Shown: positions 10,072 through 59,412 of the stretch, piece by piece
How positions within the stretch are numbered: the stretch's first letter is position 1
Layout: each line of letters begins with the position of its first letter
From: Brasilonema sennae CENA114
GTDB taxonomy: Bacteria; Cyanobacteriota; Cyanobacteriia; Cyanobacteriales; Nostocaceae
DNA length: 64,000 nucleotides
Direction: 5' to 3'
Assembly: GCF_006968745.1 (NCBI RefSeq)
Contig: NZ_CP030118.1
Coordinates: forward strand, 3,236,654-3,300,653
Notes under the pieces: model-generated
The model's database searches: none
Seen by the model: the letters and a program-made list of their open reading frames with translations, nothing else
Told to the model about the DNA's origin: nothing
Translations under genes and position numbers: made by a program

Positions 10072-11424
10072 ATGATGATAGACTTACGCAAGTTTTTTGA
10101 AGCTACAGATCCCAGCAGAACTCTTGTTGTTAAGGACACACAGGATAAGAAGTATTATATTGACTTTTCTTCTGTGCGTGGTGGAGATATTATCTTCAAA
10201 CTAAAGCAGAAGATGACATTTTTTAAGCCGAATGACCCTACCTGCACGCTTTTTACTGGGCACATTGGGTGTGGGAAATCTACGGAATTGCGGCGGCTGC
10301 AACTGGAGTTGGAAGCGGATGGTTTTTGTGTTATCTATTTTGAGTCTAGCGAAGACTTGGAAATGACTGATGTGGATATTGCTGATGTGCTGTTGGGGAT
10401 CGCCCGTCGCGTCAGTCAAAGTTTAGAAAAACTCAATCTTGAAGAACCCAGCAGGCTGAAAGAGTTACTGCAAGGTGCTATCAGGGTTTTAAATGCTGAT
10501 GTGACTGGCGTCAAACTCAAAGTTCCGAATGTTGGTGATTTTGGTGTCACCTCTGAAAAAGAAAAGTTTACTTTGGCTTTTGGAATTGGGGAAATCACGA
10601 CTAAGGTTAAGAGTGACGCAACACTGCGGGAAAAACTCAACCAGTATCTGGGGCCACAAAAAATTAAACTGTTAGACGCGATTAATAAGGAGTTGCTGGA
10701 ACCTGCGATCGCCCAACTGAAACAGCAGGGCAAAAAAGGTTTAGTGGTGATTGTAGATAATCTTGACAGAATTGATAATCGTCCCAAGGCTTGGGGACGT
10801 CCACAACAAGAATACTTGTTTGTGGATCAGGGTGAGTATCTCACGAAGTTGAATTGTCATGTTGTGTATACAATGCCACTGTCTTTGAAGTTTTCTAATG
10901 ACTATGGAACCCTCACACAGAGATTTTTGGAAGATCCCAGAGTGTTACCGATGGTACCTGTACAATGGTCAGATGGCAGTGTTCATGAAGAGGGAATGGC
11001 GCTGATGCAAGAGATGGTAATGGCAAGAGCTTATCCTGACTTGCGACCAGACCAGCGTGCCAGTAATATTACGTTTGTTTTTGATCGTAAGGCAACTCTT
11101 GAGCACTTGTGTAGGATGAGTGGTGGTCATGTGCGCGACTTGCTCAGGCTGCTGAATACATGGATTATGGAGGAAATGTCACTTCCTTTGAGTCGTGAAA
11201 CTTTGGATACTGTGATTCGTGCTCGTCGCAATGAAATGGTTTTGCCCATTTCTGATGAGGAGTGGGAATTGTTGCGTCGTGTGAAGCAAACGAAAAAAGT
11301 GAGTGATGATTTGGGGTATCAGAAGCTGATTCGCAGTCGGTTTGTTTTTGAATATCGCGATCGCGGTGAGTCTTGGTTTGAAGTGAATCCCATTTTGGCG
11401 GAGGCGCGGGAGTTGAATGGCTGA
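10072..11424 (+). CDS. AAA-type P-loop ATPase, putative partner of the STAND protein
   Basis: A 450-residue ATPase with Walker A GHIGCGKST (about 63-71) and Walker B GLVVIVDNLDRID (about 222-234). The N-terminus FFEATDPSRTLVVKDTQDKKYYIDF and the middle GGHVRDLLRLLNTW segment (about 355-370) recall Orc/Cdc6- or KAP-like STAND relatives; the last 80 residues resemble a winged-helix (EEWELLRRVKQTKKVSDD). It has no membrane segment. The next gene in the same direction is the giant nSTAND-WD40 protein. I recall such ATPase plus TPR/STAND neighbours in other cyanobacteria, with the two genes close together; here a repeat array of nearly 1 kb lies between them. A regulatory or defence role is inference. 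Confidence 0.8.
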   Translation: MMIDLRKFFEATDPSRTLVVKDTQDKKYYIDFSSVRGGDIIFKLKQKMTFFKPNDPTCTLFTGHIGCGKSTELRRLQLELEADGFCVIYFESSEDLEMTDVDIADVLLGIARRVSQSLEKLNLEEPSRLKELLQGAIRVLNADVTGVKLKVPNVGDFGVTSEKEKFTLAFGIGEITTKVKSDATLREKLNQYLGPQKIKLLDAINKELLEPAIAQLKQQGKKGLVVIVDNLDRIDNRPKAWGRPQQEYLFVDQGEYLTKLNCHVVYTMPLSLKFSNDYGTLTQRFLEDPRVLPMVPVQWSDGSVHEEGMALMQEMVMARAYPDLRPDQRASNITFVFDRKATLEHLCRMSGGHVRDLLRLLNTWIMEEMSLPLSRETLDTVIRARRNEMVLPISDEEWELLRRVKQTKKVSDDLGYQKLIRSRFVFEYRDRGESWFEVNPILAEARELNG

Positions 11425-12394
11425 ACAATTACTATGTTCTCTATAAGTTTCACAACCGCCAGGAACTAGAAGTTCCTGGCTCATAGGCTAAGTCCATTAA
11501 AATGGACTCAAAACAAAGCTACGCGAAAGTGATTAGTCCTCTTGAGAGGACTTTGGCTATGAGACTGGGCTTTTTAACCCCAGGCGATCCTAAAAACAAA
11601 GCTACGCGAAAGTGATTAGTCCTCTTGAGAGGACTTTGGCTATGAGACTGGGCTTTTTAACCCCAGGCGATCCTAAAAACAAAGCTACGCGAAAGTGATT
11701 AGTCCTCTTGAGAGGACTTTGGCTATGAGACTGGGCTTTTTAACCCCAGGCGATCCTAAAAACAAAGCTACGCGAAAGTGATTAGTCCTCTTGAGAGGAC
11801 TTTGGCTATGAGACTGGGCTTTTTAACCCCAGGCGATCCTAAAAACAAAGCTACGCGAAAGTGATTAGTCCTCTTGAGAGGACTTTGGCTATGAGACTGG
11901 GCTTTTTAACCCCAGGCGATCCTAAAAACAAAGCTACGCGAAAGTGATTAGTCCTCTTGAGAGGACTTTGGCTATGAGACTGGGCTTTTTAACCCCAGGC
12001 GATCCTAAAAACAAAGCTACGCGAAAGTGATTAGTCCTCTTGAGAGGACTTTGGCTATGAGACTGGGCTTTTTAACCCCAGGCGATCCTAAAAACAAAGC
12101 TACGCGAAAGTGATTAGTCCTCTTGAGAGGACTTTGGCTATGAGACTGGGCTTTTTAACCCCAGGCGATCCTAAAAACAAAGCTACGCGAAAGTGATTAG
12201 TCCTCTTGAGAGGACTTTGGCTATGAGACTGGGCTTTTTAACCCCAGGCGGTCATGGACTAAAAACAAAGCTACGCGAAAGTGATTAGTCCTCTTGAGAG
12301 GACTTTGGCTATGAGACTGGGCTTTTTAACCCCAGGCGGTCGTGAACAATAATACATCAAAGAGCTAAGGAACCGCAGATGGACGCCGAAGTAG
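11425..12394. other. Intergenic region filled by a structured repeat array
   Basis: This 970-base gap between the ATPase and STAND genes is almost all repeat. It starts with a leader carrying two hairpins (CCAGGAACTAGAAGTTCCTGG at about 11458-11480 with an inverted-repeat stem, and AGTCCATTAAAATGGACT at 11491-11508), continues with ten 83-bp units, and ends with a dispersed phrase (CCGCAGATGGACGCC near 12373) that supplies the start codon context of the next gene. No open frame inside it is credible. Confidence 0.8.
11511..12345. repeat. Ten-copy 83-bp tandem repeat array with hairpins
   Basis: Units begin AAACAAAGCTACGCG at 11511, 11594, 11677, 11760, 11843, 11926, 12009, 12092, 12175 and 12263: eight steps of exactly 83 bases and a last step of 88. 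Copies are essentially identical. Each unit has two potential hairpins, AGTCCTCTTGAGAGGACT and CTGGG-CTTTTTAAC-CCCAG, and the segment CTATGAG that can pair with CTCATAG in the leader. The last two units end GGCGGTCRTG where the others end GGCGATCCT. A diverged single-copy relative is at 24098-24240. It is not a CRISPR array, since there are no spacers. Confidence 0.95.
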
Positions 12395-15300
12395 ATGGAC
12401 GCAGATGAATTTAATGTTGATGTCAACAATGAGCGCTCATTGAAGCAATTGGCTTGGGGGATTGAGGCTTCTGTTGGACAGTTTAAGCTGATTCTGGCAC
12501 GGTGCAATTATCGTAGTTTGCGCTTGCATCTAATAAAACGATTACGTGACATTTGTCAAGTTGAAATTCGCGTCCTGGTTCTGAAGGAATCTGCAAGGAC
12601 TCTTTATACTGCCATTCGCGAAGAATCCGGGGATGATGTGCAAGCCCTGATGGTTTTGGGTTTGGAATCAGTGCGGAATCTTGAGCAAATGCTGATTAGT
12701 GCAAATCAGGTGCGGGAGGAGTTTCGCAATCATTTTCCTTTCCCTGTGGTGTTGTGGATTGATGATGAAGTTCACAAGCAGTTCATGCAGTTTGCTCCTG
12801 ATTTGGAAAGTTGGGGAACAACGAAAATTTTTCCGATTGCTCCCAATGAGTTGATGGAGTTTTTGCAAGAAACAGCAGAGCAATTCTTGACTGGTGATTT
12901 CAGTCTGACTTTAGAAAAATATTCCGAGATTAAGTTAGCTTGGCAAGATTTGCAAAATTCCGGACAAGTTCTAGAACCAGGAGTAAAAGCGAGAATCGAA
13001 TATTTGTTGGGATTCACAGAATTTGTTGATAATCACTTAGATACTACTTTGGAGTATTATCAACAAAGTTTGGCTTTTTGGCAGCAAGTCAATGATTTAG
13101 TCTGGCAAGGCAAAGTCCTGAGCAATATCACTTTCTGTTATTACGAAAAAGCGAGACAACAAGAAAGAAATTCTCCTCAGAATGTAGAGACGTTGCCCTT
13201 ACGGGTTCGCCACTCGCCTGCGGAGGGAAACCCTCCCGCAGCGCTGGACTCACATGCAACGTCTCTACAACGTGATAAAACGGAAGATTCTGATTGGCAA
13301 GAAACAAGAAATTACCTTCAGCAATGTCTCCAAGTTTTGGAATCTGCTCAACGTTCAGATTTAATTGCTAATTTACTTGATAAGTTTGGCAAAATCTTAC
13401 GTGAATTACAAGATTGGGAGGAGTTAAAGAAGTTAGCGCAGCGTGCTTTACTCATCCATGAAGCTGAAGGAGATTTGCTGAGGGTATCTCAAGATTATGG
13501 CTTTTTGGCTGAAGTTGCTTTGGCAAATCAAAAATGGCAAGAAGCGAAAACTTTAGCGGAAAAGGCGTTAGAAGTTTTATCTACGAATCCGTCTGCGATT
13601 TCTAATCGCCAGGAATTTTTGTTTCTTTTAGCGAAAGCACAACAAAACTTAGGCGAAGAGCAAGCGGCTATTAATAATTTAAAAACAGCAATCCAAATAG
13701 GTGTTTCTGACTCTAAACCCGAACTATATCTTAGTCTTTTAAGAAATTTACGAAGTTTATATTTAAAACAAAAGCAATATCTCGAAGCTTTTCAAATTAA
13801 ACAGGAAGGGCTTTCGGTTGAACAACAATTTGGCTTGCGGGCGTTTATTGGTGCAGGAAGATTACAAGCGACACGACACGCAAATTTATCCAAAATTGTA
13901 GAGAAGTTGCCTGCAACGTCTCTACAGGAAAATATAGCGCCAGAAATTAGTGCATCTGGTCGTTTACTTGATGTAGAACGTTTGATTGAACGCATCGGTC
14001 GTCCTGATTATAAATTGATAGTTATTCATGGACAATCAGGAGTTGGCAAAAGTTCTCTGGTTAATGCGGGACTTGTTCCTGGTTTGAAAAAGAAGGCGAT
14101 CGGCATTCAAGATAATTTGGTTGTGCCGATACGAGTTTACACCAACTGGATGGATGAGTTGGGACGCCAGATAAAAGAGGCGTTGCAGGAGATGGGAAGA
14201 TGGGGAGATGGCGAAGCTGAAACTTCAGCTTTAGAAACTCAAGCGCAAGTGTCAGAAGTTGAAACGCCTGACTCTCGAACTACGCTGTTAAAAGAATTAC
14301 GAGAGTGTGAAACATATAATCTTCGTCCGGTACTGATTTTTGACCAATTTGAAGAATTTTTCTTTGTTGATATCGAACCACAGCAAAGGTGGCTATTTTT
14401 TGAGTTTTTAAAAGATTGCCTTAATATCTTATCGGTGAATATAGTATTGTCGTTGCGAGAAGATTACTTACATTATTTGCTCAAGTTTAATCGCTTCCGC
14501 GACAGTTCGATGATTCAGATTGATATTCTGAGCGAGAATGTTCTTTATGAGTTGGGTAACTTCTCCCGTGATGATGCTCAATCAATTATTCAGCAATTAA
14601 CTGAACGGGCTAATTTTCACTTAGAACCTGCTTTAATTGCAGAACTGGTGCGGGATTTGGCGCGTGAACTGGGCGAAGTGCGCCCGATTGAGTTGCAGGT
14701 TGTGGGGGCGCAACTGCAAGCGGAAAACATCAGAACTCTGGCAAAATATCAGGAGTGTGGCACAAAGGAAGAACTGGTAAAACGTTATCTGAATGAAGTG
14801 GTTCAGGATTGTGGAGAAGAAAATCAGCAAACGGCGGAATTTGTGTTGTATTTGCTGACGGATGAAAAAGGAACTCGTCCACTGAAGACTCATGCTGAAC
14901 TAGAACGGGATTTGCAGGTGTTAGCTGCAGATTTGAGTAAAGATGCGAGCAAGTTAGATTTGATTTTAGAGATTTTTGTGGAATCTGGCTTGGTGGTTTT
15001 GTTAAAAGAAAATCCGGCAAACCGCTATCAGTTGGTGCATGATTATTTAGCTGAGTTTATCCGCCACCAACAGGAACCGAAGTTAAGCCAGGTGATGGCT
15101 GAACTGGAACAGGAAAGAAAGCAACGCCTGCAAACTGAAGAACAGTTAAAACAAACTGAGCAGGCTAAGCAGATATTAACAAAAGCTAACCAGAAAGCAC
15201 AGCAGCGGATTCGTGTTGGATCGGGAGTGTTGATTGCATCCTTTGTTGTTGCAGGAATTGTCACATTACAAGCATTTGGGCTTGTGGGCAAGGCACAGAA

Positions 15301-17878
15301 AAGTGCAATTCTAGAACGACAAGGCGTTGCAGCAGAGAAGCTTTTTCAGATCCAACAAATAGAAGCATTGCTCTTAGCTTTAAACGCAGGGCAAGATTTA
15401 GACAATCTCATAAATAAAGAAAATGAACCAGCAGAATATCCAGCTGCTAGCCCTGTCTTAGCTTTACAGACGATTGTTGACAATATTCATGAGCAAAATC
15501 AACTCAAAGGGCATACAGGTTCCGTCAACAGCGCCAGTTTTAGCCCAGATGGTAAACGCATTCTCACCGCATCAGAGGACAATACGACGCGGCTGTGGGA
15601 TATATCGGGTAAGCAATTAGTAGAACTTAAAGGGCATAAAGGTTCTATCAACAGTGCCAGTTTTAGCCCGGATGGCAAACGGATTCTCACTGCTTCCGAT
15701 GATCAAACGGCGCGGGTGTGGGATAGCGCAGGTAAGCAATTAGCAGAACTTAAAGGGCATAAAGGTTCTGTCGTCAGCGCCAGTTTTAGCCCGGATGGCA
15801 AACGTATTCTCACTGTTTCATCGGATAATACAGCGCGGGTGTGGGATAGTGTAGGTAAGCCATTAGCCGAACTCAAAGGGCATACAGGTCCTGTCAACAG
15901 CGCCAGTTTTAGCCCAGACGGCAAACGTATTCTCACTGTTTCATCGGACAAAACGGCGCGGCTGTGGGATAGTGCAGGTAAGCCATTAGCAGAACTTAAA
16001 GGGGATACAGTTCCCGTCAACAGAGCTAGTTTTAGCCCAGATGGCAAACGCATTCTCACTGGTTCTGATGACACGGTGCGGCTGTGGGATACCTCGGGGA
16101 AGCAAATAGCACAACTTAAAGGGCATACATCTAGCGTTATCAGCGCCAGTTTTAGCCCAGACGGCAAACGTATTCTCACTGCTTCTGATGATACGGTGCG
16201 GCTGTGGGATACCTCAGGCAAGCAAATAGCACAAATCAAAGGGAATACATCTAGCGTCATCAGCGCCAGTTTTAGCCCGGATGGCAAACGTATTCTCACT
16301 GCTTCTGATGACATGGCGCGGCTATGGAATCTCTCGGGCAAGCAAATAGCACAACTCAAATGGCCTAGCGGTTCTATCTACAGCACCAGTTTTAGCCCAG
16401 ATGGTAAACGCATTCTCACTGTTTCATCGGACAATACGGCGCGGCTGTGGGATATGTCGGAGCAAATACCGGAAAAAGAGGATATATATTCTAATTTTGC
16501 AAATTATAAGCGCGATGGCAAACGCATTTTCGCCGCTTCATCGGATAGCGCACCAGTATGGGATAGCGCAGGTAAACAATTAGCAGAACTCAAAGAGGAC
16601 ACATCTGCTGTCAACACCGCTAGTTTCAGCCCAGATGGCAAACGCATTCTTACCGCTTCAAATAACAGAAGGGTACGGCTGTGGGATAGTGGAGGTAAGC
16701 AATTAGCCGAATTCAAAGGGCATACAGATAATGTCAACAGCGCTAGTTTTAGCCCGGATGGCAAACGCATTCTTACCGCTTCAGACAGTACAACGCGGCT
16801 GTGGGATAGTACAGGTAAACAATTTACCGAACTCAAAAAGCTTTCTGGTGTCTACAGCGCCATTTTTAGCCCAGATGGCAAACGCATTCTTACCGCTTCA
16901 TCGGACAAAACCGCGCGGCTGTGGGATAGTTCGGGCAAGTTATTAGCCGAACTCAAAGGGCATACATCTGATCTCAACAGCGCTAGTTTTAGCCCGGATG
17001 GCAAACGTATTGTAACTGCATCATGGGACAAAACAGCGCGGGTGTGGGATAGCACAGGTAAGCAATTAGCAGAACTCAAAGGGCATACAGGTTTTGTCCT
17101 CAACGCCAGTTTTAGCCCGGATGGCAAACGTATTCTCACTGCTTCATCTGACAATACTGCACGACTGTGGGATATATCGGGCAAGTTATTAGCCGAACTC
17201 AAAGGGCATAAAGATAATGTCAACAGCGCCATTTTTAGCCCGGATGGCAAACGCATTCTCACCGCTTCATGGGACACAACAGCGCGGCTGTGGGATAGCA
17301 CAGGCAAACAATTAGCTGAACTCAAAGGACACACATCTGGTGTTTACAGCGCCGTTTTTAGCCCGGATGGTAAACGCATTCTCACCGCTTCAGATGACAG
17401 AACGGCGCGGGTGTGGGATAGCGCAGGCAAACAATTAGCCGAACTCAAAGGGCATACAGGTTCTGTCCTCAGCGCCAGTTTTAGCCCAGATGGCAAACGC
17501 ATTCTCACTGCTTCGTGGGACAGAACCGCGCGGGTGTGGCAATATACAACTTTCGACGAACTTTTATCACAAGGTTGCCAATGGCTGGATGATTATTTTG
17601 TCATCAACCCTAAAGAATTGGAAAAACTAGAAGTCTGCCAAAATAAATCTAACTTAAAAGCAGCAGCTCCATTTTTGGTTAAAGAAGGTGAACAGCAAGC
17701 AAGAGCAGGTAATATTGATGAGGCAATTGCAACTTTCCGTAAAGCTTTGCAGTGGAATCCTAACTTAAAATTTGACCCCAAGGAAAAAGCACAAGAATTA
17801 GCTAACAAAGGCGAAGCTGAGCGCTTGGTTGCTTGCAGAAGTAAACGCAGAAGTAAACAATTTTGTTATAGAGGGTAA
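12395..17878 (+). CDS. Giant nSTAND NTPase with TPR and 17 WD40 repeats, C-terminus frameshifted
   Basis: An NLR-like protein of 1827 residues. Order: an N-terminal domain (about 10-170) with a Walker-B-like PVVLWIDDEV; TPR-like helices (about 190-480); an nSTAND NTPase with Walker A GQSGVGKSS near 546 and PVLIFDQFEEFFF near 650; a charged coiled coil with one membrane helix (about 938-965); 17 WD40 repeats (about 1037-1722), nearly all sharing ASFSPDGKRILTAS; then a TPR start. The frame is lost near 17825 (AERLVACRSK instead of an expected AERLLAEVN-type continuation) and the missing TPR lies in the +1 frame at 17829-18245. A family A repeat encodes about 30 residues near 263-293. STAND proteins are signal-sensing switches; the ligand and effector are unknown. 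The start lies in a dispersed repeat and is preceded directly by a stop codon. Confidence 0.85.
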   Translation: MDADEFNVDVNNERSLKQLAWGIEASVGQFKLILARCNYRSLRLHLIKRLRDICQVEIRVLVLKESARTLYTAIREESGDDVQALMVLGLESVRNLEQMLISANQVREEFRNHFPFPVVLWIDDEVHKQFMQFAPDLESWGTTKIFPIAPNELMEFLQETAEQFLTGDFSLTLEKYSEIKLAWQDLQNSGQVLEPGVKARIEYLLGFTEFVDNHLDTTLEYYQQSLAFWQQVNDLVWQGKVLSNITFCYYEKARQQERNSPQNVETLPLRVRHSPAEGNPPAALDSHATSLQRDKTEDSDWQETRNYLQQCLQVLESAQRSDLIANLLDKFGKILRELQDWEELKKLAQRALLIHEAEGDLLRVSQDYGFLAEVALANQKWQEAKTLAEKALEVLSTNPSAISNRQEFLFLLAKAQQNLGEEQAAINNLKTAIQIGVSDSKPELYLSLLRNLRSLYLKQKQYLEAFQIKQEGLSVEQQFGLRAFIGAGRLQATRHANLSKIVEKLPATSLQENIAPEISASGRLLDVERLIERIGRPDYKLIVIHGQSGVGKSSLVNAGLVPGLKKKAIGIQDNLVVPIRVYTNWMDELGRQIKEALQEMGRWGDGEAETSALETQAQVSEVETPDSRTTLLKELRECETYNLRPVLIFDQFEEFFFVDIEPQQRWLFFEFLKDCLNILSVNIVLSLREDYLHYLLKFNRFRDSSMIQIDILSENVLYELGNFSRDDAQSIIQQLTERANFHLEPALIAELVRDLARELGEVRPIELQVVGAQLQAENIRTLAKYQECGTKEELVKRYLNEVVQDCGEENQQTAEFVLYLLTDEKGTRPLKTHAELERDLQVLAADLSKDASKLDLILEIFVESGLVVLLKENPANRYQLVHDYLAEFIRHQQEPKLSQVMAELEQERKQRLQTEEQLKQTEQAKQILTKANQKAQQRIRVGSGVLIASFVVAGIVTLQAFGLVGKAQKSAILERQGVAAEKLFQIQQIEALLLALNAGQDLDNLINKENEPAEYPAASPVLALQTIVDNIHEQNQLKGHTGSVNSASFSPDGKRILTASEDNTTRLWDISGKQLVELKGHKGSINSASFSPDGKRILTASDDQTARVWDSAGKQLAELKGHKGSVVSASFSPDGKRILTVSSDNTARVWDSVGKPLAELKGHTGPVNSASFSPDGKRILTVSSDKTARLWDSAGKPLAELKGDTVPVNRASFSPDGKRILTGSDDTVRLWDTSGKQIAQLKGHTSSVISASFSPDGKRILTASDDTVRLWDTSGKQIAQIKGNTSSVISASFSPDGKRILTASDDMARLWNLSGKQIAQLKWPSGSIYSTSFSPDGKRILTVSSDNTARLWDMSEQIPEKEDIYSNFANYKRDGKRIFAASSDSAPVWDSAGKQLAELKEDTSAVNTASFSPDGKRILTASNNRRVRLWDSGGKQLAEFKGHTDNVNSASFSPDGKRILTASDSTTRLWDSTGKQFTELKKLSGVYSAIFSPDGKRILTASSDKTARLWDSSGKLLAELKGHTSDLNSASFSPDGKRIVTASWDKTARVWDSTGKQLAELKGHTGFVLNASFSPDGKRILTASSDNTARLWDISGKLLAELKGHKDNVNSAIFSPDGKRILTASWDTTARLWDSTGKQLAELKGHTSGVYSAVFSPDGKRILTASDDRTARVWDSAGKQLAELKGHTGSVLSASFSPDGKRILTASWDRTARVWQYTTFDELLSQGCQWLDDYFVINPKELEKLEVCQNKSNLKAAAPFLVKEGEQQARAGNIDEAIATFRKALQWNPNLKFDPKEKAQELANKGEAERLVACRSKRRSKQFCYRG
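13183..13273. repeat. In-frame dispersed repeat inside the STAND gene
   Basis: A roughly 90-base insertion flanked by inverted GTAGAGACGTTG and CAACGTCTCTAC. Its centre (CTGCGGAGGGAAACCCTCCCGCAGCGCTGG, positions about 13219-13248) is the reverse complement of the family A module at 6519-6550. It adds about 30 Pro/Leu/Arg/Ala-rich residues between two TPR-like helices without breaking the frame. A smaller relative with GTAGAGAAGTTG and CAACGTCTCTAC ends is at about 13899-13927. Confidence 0.8.
15503..17558 (+). repeat. Seventeen near-identical WD40-coding repeats
   Basis: Repeat units of 117-126 bases, each coding for a blade with LKGH, SASFSPDGKRILTAS and TARLWDSSGKQLAE segments. Long DNA stretches are nearly identical between copies, which indicates recent duplication or gene conversion. 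Blade 9 (about 16480-16590) is degenerate and lacks the FSPDGKRIL core. Antisense frames across the array are mirror images of it, not genes. Confidence 0.92.
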
Positions 17879-24027: not shown

Positions 24028-24097
24028 ATGCCTTTTAAACTTGTAAATTTTGGGTAAATTTTGGGTAAATTTTGGATTAAGTTTTATTAAAGACAGC

Positions 24098-24240
24098 CAG
24101 GAAGCGTGTTTCCTGGCTCATAGTTTAAGTCTACTCAAGTAGACTTAAAACCAAGTGATCTAAAGAATTTAGTCTTCTTGAGAGGACTTGAGCTATTAGC
24201 CTAGGGTTTTAAACCCTAGGTGGTTGTTGACACTATGCAA
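24098..24240. repeat. Single-copy relative of the 83-bp array element
   Basis: Aligns along its length with the leader plus one unit of the array at 11455-12345: hairpin CCAGGAA..TTTCCTGG (24098-24117), CTCATAG, hairpin AAGTCTACTCAAGTAGACTT, then TTAGTCTTCTTGAGAGGACT, and finally the stem CCTAGGGTTTTAAACCCTAGG near 24201-24221. Conserved hairpins with changed bases on both arms suggest that the folded form matters. It lies in the 3' flank of sodB. Confidence 0.8.
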
Positions 24241-59261: not shown

Positions 59262-59412
59262 TTTAACCAGTTATCAGTTACCAGTTATCAGTTATCAGTT
59301 ACCAGTTACCAGTTATCAGTTATCAGTTATCAGTTATCAGTTTTTATTTCCCATAACCCTGTTCCCTGTTCCCTGTTCCCTGTTCACTGTTCCCCGTTCC
59401 CTGTTCACTGTT
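59262..59412. repeat. Two adjoining heptamer repeat tracts
   Basis: Tract 1 (about 59262-59342) is CAGTTAT/CAGTTAC repeated about ten times. Tract 2 (about 59352-59412) is CCCTGTT with ACTGTTC variants. Both are cyanobacterial short tandemly repeated repetitive sequences. Plus-strand frames through them give Ser/Tyr/Pro/Val-rich periodic peptides and are not genes. Confidence 0.9.

Follow-up and report, generated by a model that had tools for sequence, protein, structure and literature searches.

The window, by which we mean the whole 64,000-nucleotide stretch of Brasilonema sennae CENA114 DNA that was analysed, contains two neighbouring genes transcribed in the same direction that code for an ATPase and a large nSTAND1-WD40 protein. 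The gap between them is occupied by a hairpin element followed by a tandem array, and a second, single copy of the element lies further downstream. The features are as follows, with the strand given for the genes:

10072–11424, + strand: gene for an AAA_22/ATPase_2 ATPase of 450 aa, upstream neighbour of the array (Pfam)
11456–11588: complete four-hairpin element, the head of the array, running from CCGCC to GGCG (covariance model R1)
11458–11480: hairpin 1, GCCAGGAACTAGAAGTTCCTGGC, occurring once (sequence, fold, covariation)
11491–11508: hairpin 2, AGTCCATTAAAATGGACT, occurring once (sequence, fold, covariation)
11510–12338: tandem array of 10 units, each made of linker, hairpin 3 and hairpin 4, in eight 83-bp steps and one 88-bp step
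11535–11552: hairpin 3 of unit 1, AGTCCTCTTGAGAGGACT, present in every unit (sequence, fold, covariation)
11565–11583: hairpin 4 of unit 1, CTGGGCTTTTTAACCCCAG, present in every unit (sequence, fold, covariation)
12247–12268: aberrant junction of the 88-bp step, where unit 9 meets unit 10, GGCGGTCATGGACTAAAAACAA (unit-by-unit reading; comparison with B. bromeliae)
12395–17878, + strand: nSTAND1-WD40 gene, 1827 aa, downstream neighbour of the array (Pfam)
24094–24224: second member of the family, single-copy and diverged (124.1 bits with R1; fold z −6.1 relative to shuffles)

An earlier note on this DNA had described ten near-identical 83-bp units with two hairpins each between the two genes, and had read them as the recently amplified 3' part of a larger structured element. 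TRF analysis returned one tandem array at 11510–12338 (period 83, 9.9 copies, 99% matches). Unit-by-unit reading revealed that units 1–8 are letter-for-letter identical and that units 9 and 10 have unchanged hairpins, their differences being confined to the spacer. The last step is of 88 bp, not 83 (3248827 to 3248915 on the contig), and its junction sequence consists of GGCGGTC joined to ATGGACTAAAAAC. The head element shows the order CCGCC, hairpin 1, hairpin 2, linker, hairpin 3, hairpin 4 and GGCG. Unit 1 is its second half, and units 2–10 are extra copies of linker, hairpin 3 and hairpin 4. Both the description and the reading as an amplified half were thus borne out, and a recent expansion was supported. 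The head element scored with R1 on both strands (118.8 bits for the + strand, 105.7 bits for the − strand) because it is near-symmetric, and its fold had a z of −4.9 relative to shuffles. Element and array together are flanked by an 8-bp direct repeat, TGAACAAT (11422–11429 and 12343–12350), as is the copy in B. bromeliae; this repeat differs from the 4-bp duplication of the family described below and is unexplained. Other tandem repeats of the window are a run of about 17 copies of a 123-bp repeat within the STAND gene (15501–17539), encoding its WD40 repeats, and two adjoining heptamer arrays at 59268–59412 (CAGTTAT x 10.7 and CCCTGTT x 8).

The history of the locus was followed in related genomes. 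A conserved motif of the downstream STAND gene was found next to the ATPase gene in 38 of 54 Nostocales loci, in line with the earlier view of the two genes as partners. In these 38 orthologous pairs the gap to the STAND motif measures 93–733 bp (median 275), versus 1015 bp in B. sennae; four of the gaps hold a single element, 34 hold none and an array occurs in none of them. Orthologues of the ATPase in six same-genus or sibling genomes showed 93–97% identity, and the gene pair was kept in all six whatever the state of the element. In Brasilonema bromeliae SPC951 a single element lies between the same flanks, Scytonema tolypothrichoides VB-61278 has a remnant consisting of the arm of the last hairpin (4) and flank, Scytonema sp. 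RU_4_4 lacks the element, and B. angustatum, Brasilonema sp. CT11 and Brasilonema sp. UFV-L1 carry different repeats in the gap. In UFV-L1 (L101/L203) these are tandem repeats of its own, including copies of the 3'-end of the ATPase gene. The single copy of B. bromeliae could be an assembly collapse, since this is a draft assembly of 450 contigs. Three Nostoc genomes have an element copy whose flanks differ, suggesting a separate insertion. The sequence at 24098–24240 had been proposed as the single-copy form of the array. It belongs to the same family and is indeed single-copy, but it is a distant paralogue; the nearest single-copy forms are the array's own head and the B. bromeliae copy.

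Covariance model R1 was built from ten copies, and 150 candidates were scored with it in the B. sennae genome. The family occupies at least 70 loci of this genome, and since the element almost equals its own inverse, most of these loci match on both strands. The family also ranges across the order: matches at E<=1e-19 were obtained in 15 of the 40 genomes searched, B. sennae included. Both 15-bp terminal inverted repeats (TIRs), CTNAGATCTTGCACC, were present in 35 of 60 family copies; 31 of these 35 measure 140–190 bp, intact copies being of about 170 bp. An exact 4-bp TSD flanks 20 of the 35 TIR-bearing copies, versus 1.4 expected by shuffling, and 3-bp and 5-bp matches were near expectation. 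The exact TIR pattern occurred 92 times and its reversed control 0 times, and the family TIR, written CTCAGATCTTGCACC, goes with 4-bp duplications. These results indicated that the four-hairpin family is a MITE. At the two copies of the window (the array head and 24094–24224) the TIR is not recognisable and a clear 4-bp TSD was not found; both copies look old, and it is through the shared four-hairpin core alone that they are traced to the TIR-bearing MITE. No autonomous element or transposase with the family TIRs was found, and TIR pairs 0.2–1.1 kb apart in the B. sennae genome hold only nested repeats. Searches of plasmid and phage collections gave weak matches in Allocoleopsis franciscana plasmids alone and 0 matches in phages. 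A description of the family was not found in the literature searched, which missed key cyanobacterial repeat work (Elhai et al., 2008; the Nezha sequence), and the family may already have been described; hairpin sequence strings gave chance matches alone in the literature.

Several loci showed other combinations of ends and cores. At L170:106–429 (C1 3305705–3306028), TIR CTNAGATCTTGCACC surrounds another core of hairpins (about 121 bp long, of the GAAACCCGG type) beside a four-hairpin copy, from which TIR ends and cores seem to have been shuffled among elements. The four-hairpin core was also found between other inverted ends (AGGGCTATTTC..., GGTGTCAA...) at L139, L151 (G012), L142 (G034), and L137, L153 (G038), as if it were used by several transposon types. 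At L161, L162 and L163, a composite repeat of larger size, starting with AGGAGGCACTGCGTTGGG or its complement, has interrupted the linker of several MITE copies.

Tandem half-units were not restricted to B. sennae. A search of 291 genomes of the order for two half-units in tandem gave matches in 22, the reversed control giving 0, and arrays of 3–5 copies with unrelated unit sequences were found in G201, G302, G276, G165, G275, G097 and G114 (4 x 81 in G302, 5 x 93 in G201 and 3 x 81 in G276). Several of them repeat the layout of one head followed by n halves, and a head with a variable number of tandem modules was read in the window and at L196, L197 and L199. Where read, the arrays of the seven other genomes sit at unrelated loci; the one in G302 directly precedes a gene that reads, at its start, as glycogen synthase. 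The ten copies of B. sennae form the largest array seen. We take the half-unit arrays to have arisen separately in these seven genomes, and their recurrence at other loci indicates that expansion is a habit of the element, not of the STAND operon.

Based on these results, the array very probably arose when the linker and hairpins 3 and 4, which make up one half of an old element copy, were amplified locally in tandem. The element itself is dispersed, palindromic and non-coding, of MITE type, and the array would have no dedicated role towards the STAND gene. The process would have started from an old element in the ATPase–STAND gap. The first duplication of its second half would have been the 88-bp step, in which 3' flank just outside hairpin 4 became joined to the end of hairpin 2; the 88-bp junction would be a relic of this event, as suggested by the unit reading and by the comparison with B. 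bromeliae. A version 5 bp shorter, the 83-bp unit, would then have been multiplied by replication slippage or unequal recombination, probably helped by the hairpins. Transcription of the operon through the array, if it occurs, would add about 0.83 kb of hairpin-rich RNA as a by-product. What appears to be a regulatory RNA array thus becomes the local expansion of a mobile-type repeat, an expansion seen repeatedly across an order.

The best surviving alternative, which we nevertheless regard as improbable, is an evolved regulatory RNA array in which transcribed tandem hairpins would attenuate, stabilise or process the ATPase–STAND transcript; tuning of the STAND gene had been suggested before. 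It draws on the position between co-directional genes, the high stability of the hairpins and a strong covariation seen throughout the order. Among 33 copies taken from many genomes, 96.1% of stem cells pair, and two-sided changes were counted in 236 cells, versus 73 in shuffles and 20–29 when partners were slid; the copies of alignment A2 were chosen by a model favouring paired stems. The covariation is carried by the four hairpins (225 two-sided versus 6 one-sided changes), and there is little of it in the stem closing over hairpins 2 and 3 or in the terminal CCGCC/GGCGG stem. However, mismatches in the stems of 80 copies were G-T in 34 cases and A-C in 37 (17 and 26 when oriented by codirectional flanking genes, p 0.22), and no within-copy tendency to one mismatch type, that is, no strand bias, was detected. 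This lack of a G-U excess argues against a selected RNA strand, where such an excess is expected. Family copies showed no clear preference with respect to flanking genes (47 codirectional, 14 convergent and 14 divergent, p 0.09); orientations relied on simple ORF calling, and hairpins were located by Watson-Crick matching. No promoter- or terminator-like sites beyond chance were found in the array units. Together with the mismatch pattern and the absence of a clear gene-orientation preference, this makes an RNA function shaped by evolution less likely. The locus itself also gives no support to tuning, since the array is absent or single-copy in six of six siblings, which keep the gene pair with one copy, a remnant or none, 34 of the 38 orthologous gaps lack the element, and half-unit arrays of other genomes lie, where read, at other loci.

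Other contents of the units were also considered. Rfam 15 gave 0 matches in the window at gathering score and nothing relevant at relaxed thresholds. A CRISPR array was rejected, the whole 83-bp unit being identical and the Rfam CRISPR-DR matches falling far under gathering score, and so was a protein-coding array, since the ORFs within units are of 26–37 aa and the period is not divisible by three. With siblings lacking the array, and with no promoter or terminator signal beyond chance, no long ORF and no Rfam match, a dedicated role is left unsupported. As far as the sequence allows, 0.83 kb of hairpins may still have an incidental effect on read-through transcription or STAND expression.

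The mismatch pattern fits palindromes whose upkeep takes place in the DNA; template switching, a process proposed for RNA hairpins (PMC8794818), could be one such mechanism. We tentatively put forward, as a possibility that falls short of probable, that template switching between arms at the DNA level keeps and rewrites perfect hairpins, which would give the appearance of covariation in the absence of RNA selection, and that the same hairpins drive the repeated amplification of half-units across the order. Compensatory changes are normally strong evidence for a functional RNA, and the family, which shows neither G-U excess nor strand preference, counsels caution in this respect; its many copies make the template-switching idea testable.

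The array could also be a tandem cluster of REPINs, that is, REP sequences moved by a RAYT (Y1 tyrosine transposase), but this is rather less likely still. Paired inverted hairpin units in tandem clusters do resemble REPINs (PMC3116915), and the B. sennae genome has a RAYT-like Y1 transposase gene (189 aa; L171:1180–2060, C1 ~493980–494860). However, the GTAG tag was not seen on the element, the family has TIRs and 4-bp TSDs, and the only RAYT-like gene of the genome is flanked on both sides by a different, GTAG-tagged palindrome, GGTGGGCA-TGCCCACC; on these flanks a RAYT was rejected as the mover of the family. A palindrome similar to this one fills the ATPase–STAND gap of B. angustatum (L099).

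We consider an assembly artefact, with a wrong copy number or no array at all, very unlikely. The copy number is known from the assembly alone; against an artefact, this assembly has three contigs and is 99.99% complete, and a simple assembly error would hardly produce the distinct 88-bp junction and the spacer variants. Least likely of all is an array of small-RNA genes like NsiR1 of Anabaena, in which each unit has its own promoter: short tandem units do precede a gene here, and the organism is a Nostocales cyanobacterium, but the only match of the promoter scan in this region was no better than chance and lay at the array's end, in place of one per unit.

Among known systems, two cyanobacterial ones are likened to the present family by their description: the type II MITEs of Anabaena sp. 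90, for which a secondary structure is predicted and a matching IS was not found (PMC3542288), and Nezha, also a cyanobacterial MITE according to its mention in PMC3733652. REP/REPIN elements are likewise intergenic paired inverted palindromes with known tandem clusters (PMC3733652; PMC3116915); unlike them, the present family has no RAYT flanked by the element and no GTAG tag, with TIRs and 4-bp TSDs instead. BrickBuilt of Porphyromonas gingivalis is similar in being an intergenic MITE with a tandem repeat array inside it, but its repeat unit is of 23 bp and promoter activity has been reported for it (PMC4596501), whereas no promoter-like sites were seen in the units described here. The BOX elements of Streptococcus pneumoniae (boxA-boxB(n)-boxC) are MITE-like dispersed repeats with TIRs and TSDs, an internal module of which occurs in a varying number of tandem copies; the proposed mechanisms include slipped mispairing or unequal crossover (PMC3049150). 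The likeness is drawn from the layout, and the host is unrelated; unlike in BOX, what is repeated here is half of a near-symmetric four-hairpin element together with its linker. By analogy, the family would be a new MITE with BOX-like modular expansion, which appears to work like BOX and is not counted as one of its members.
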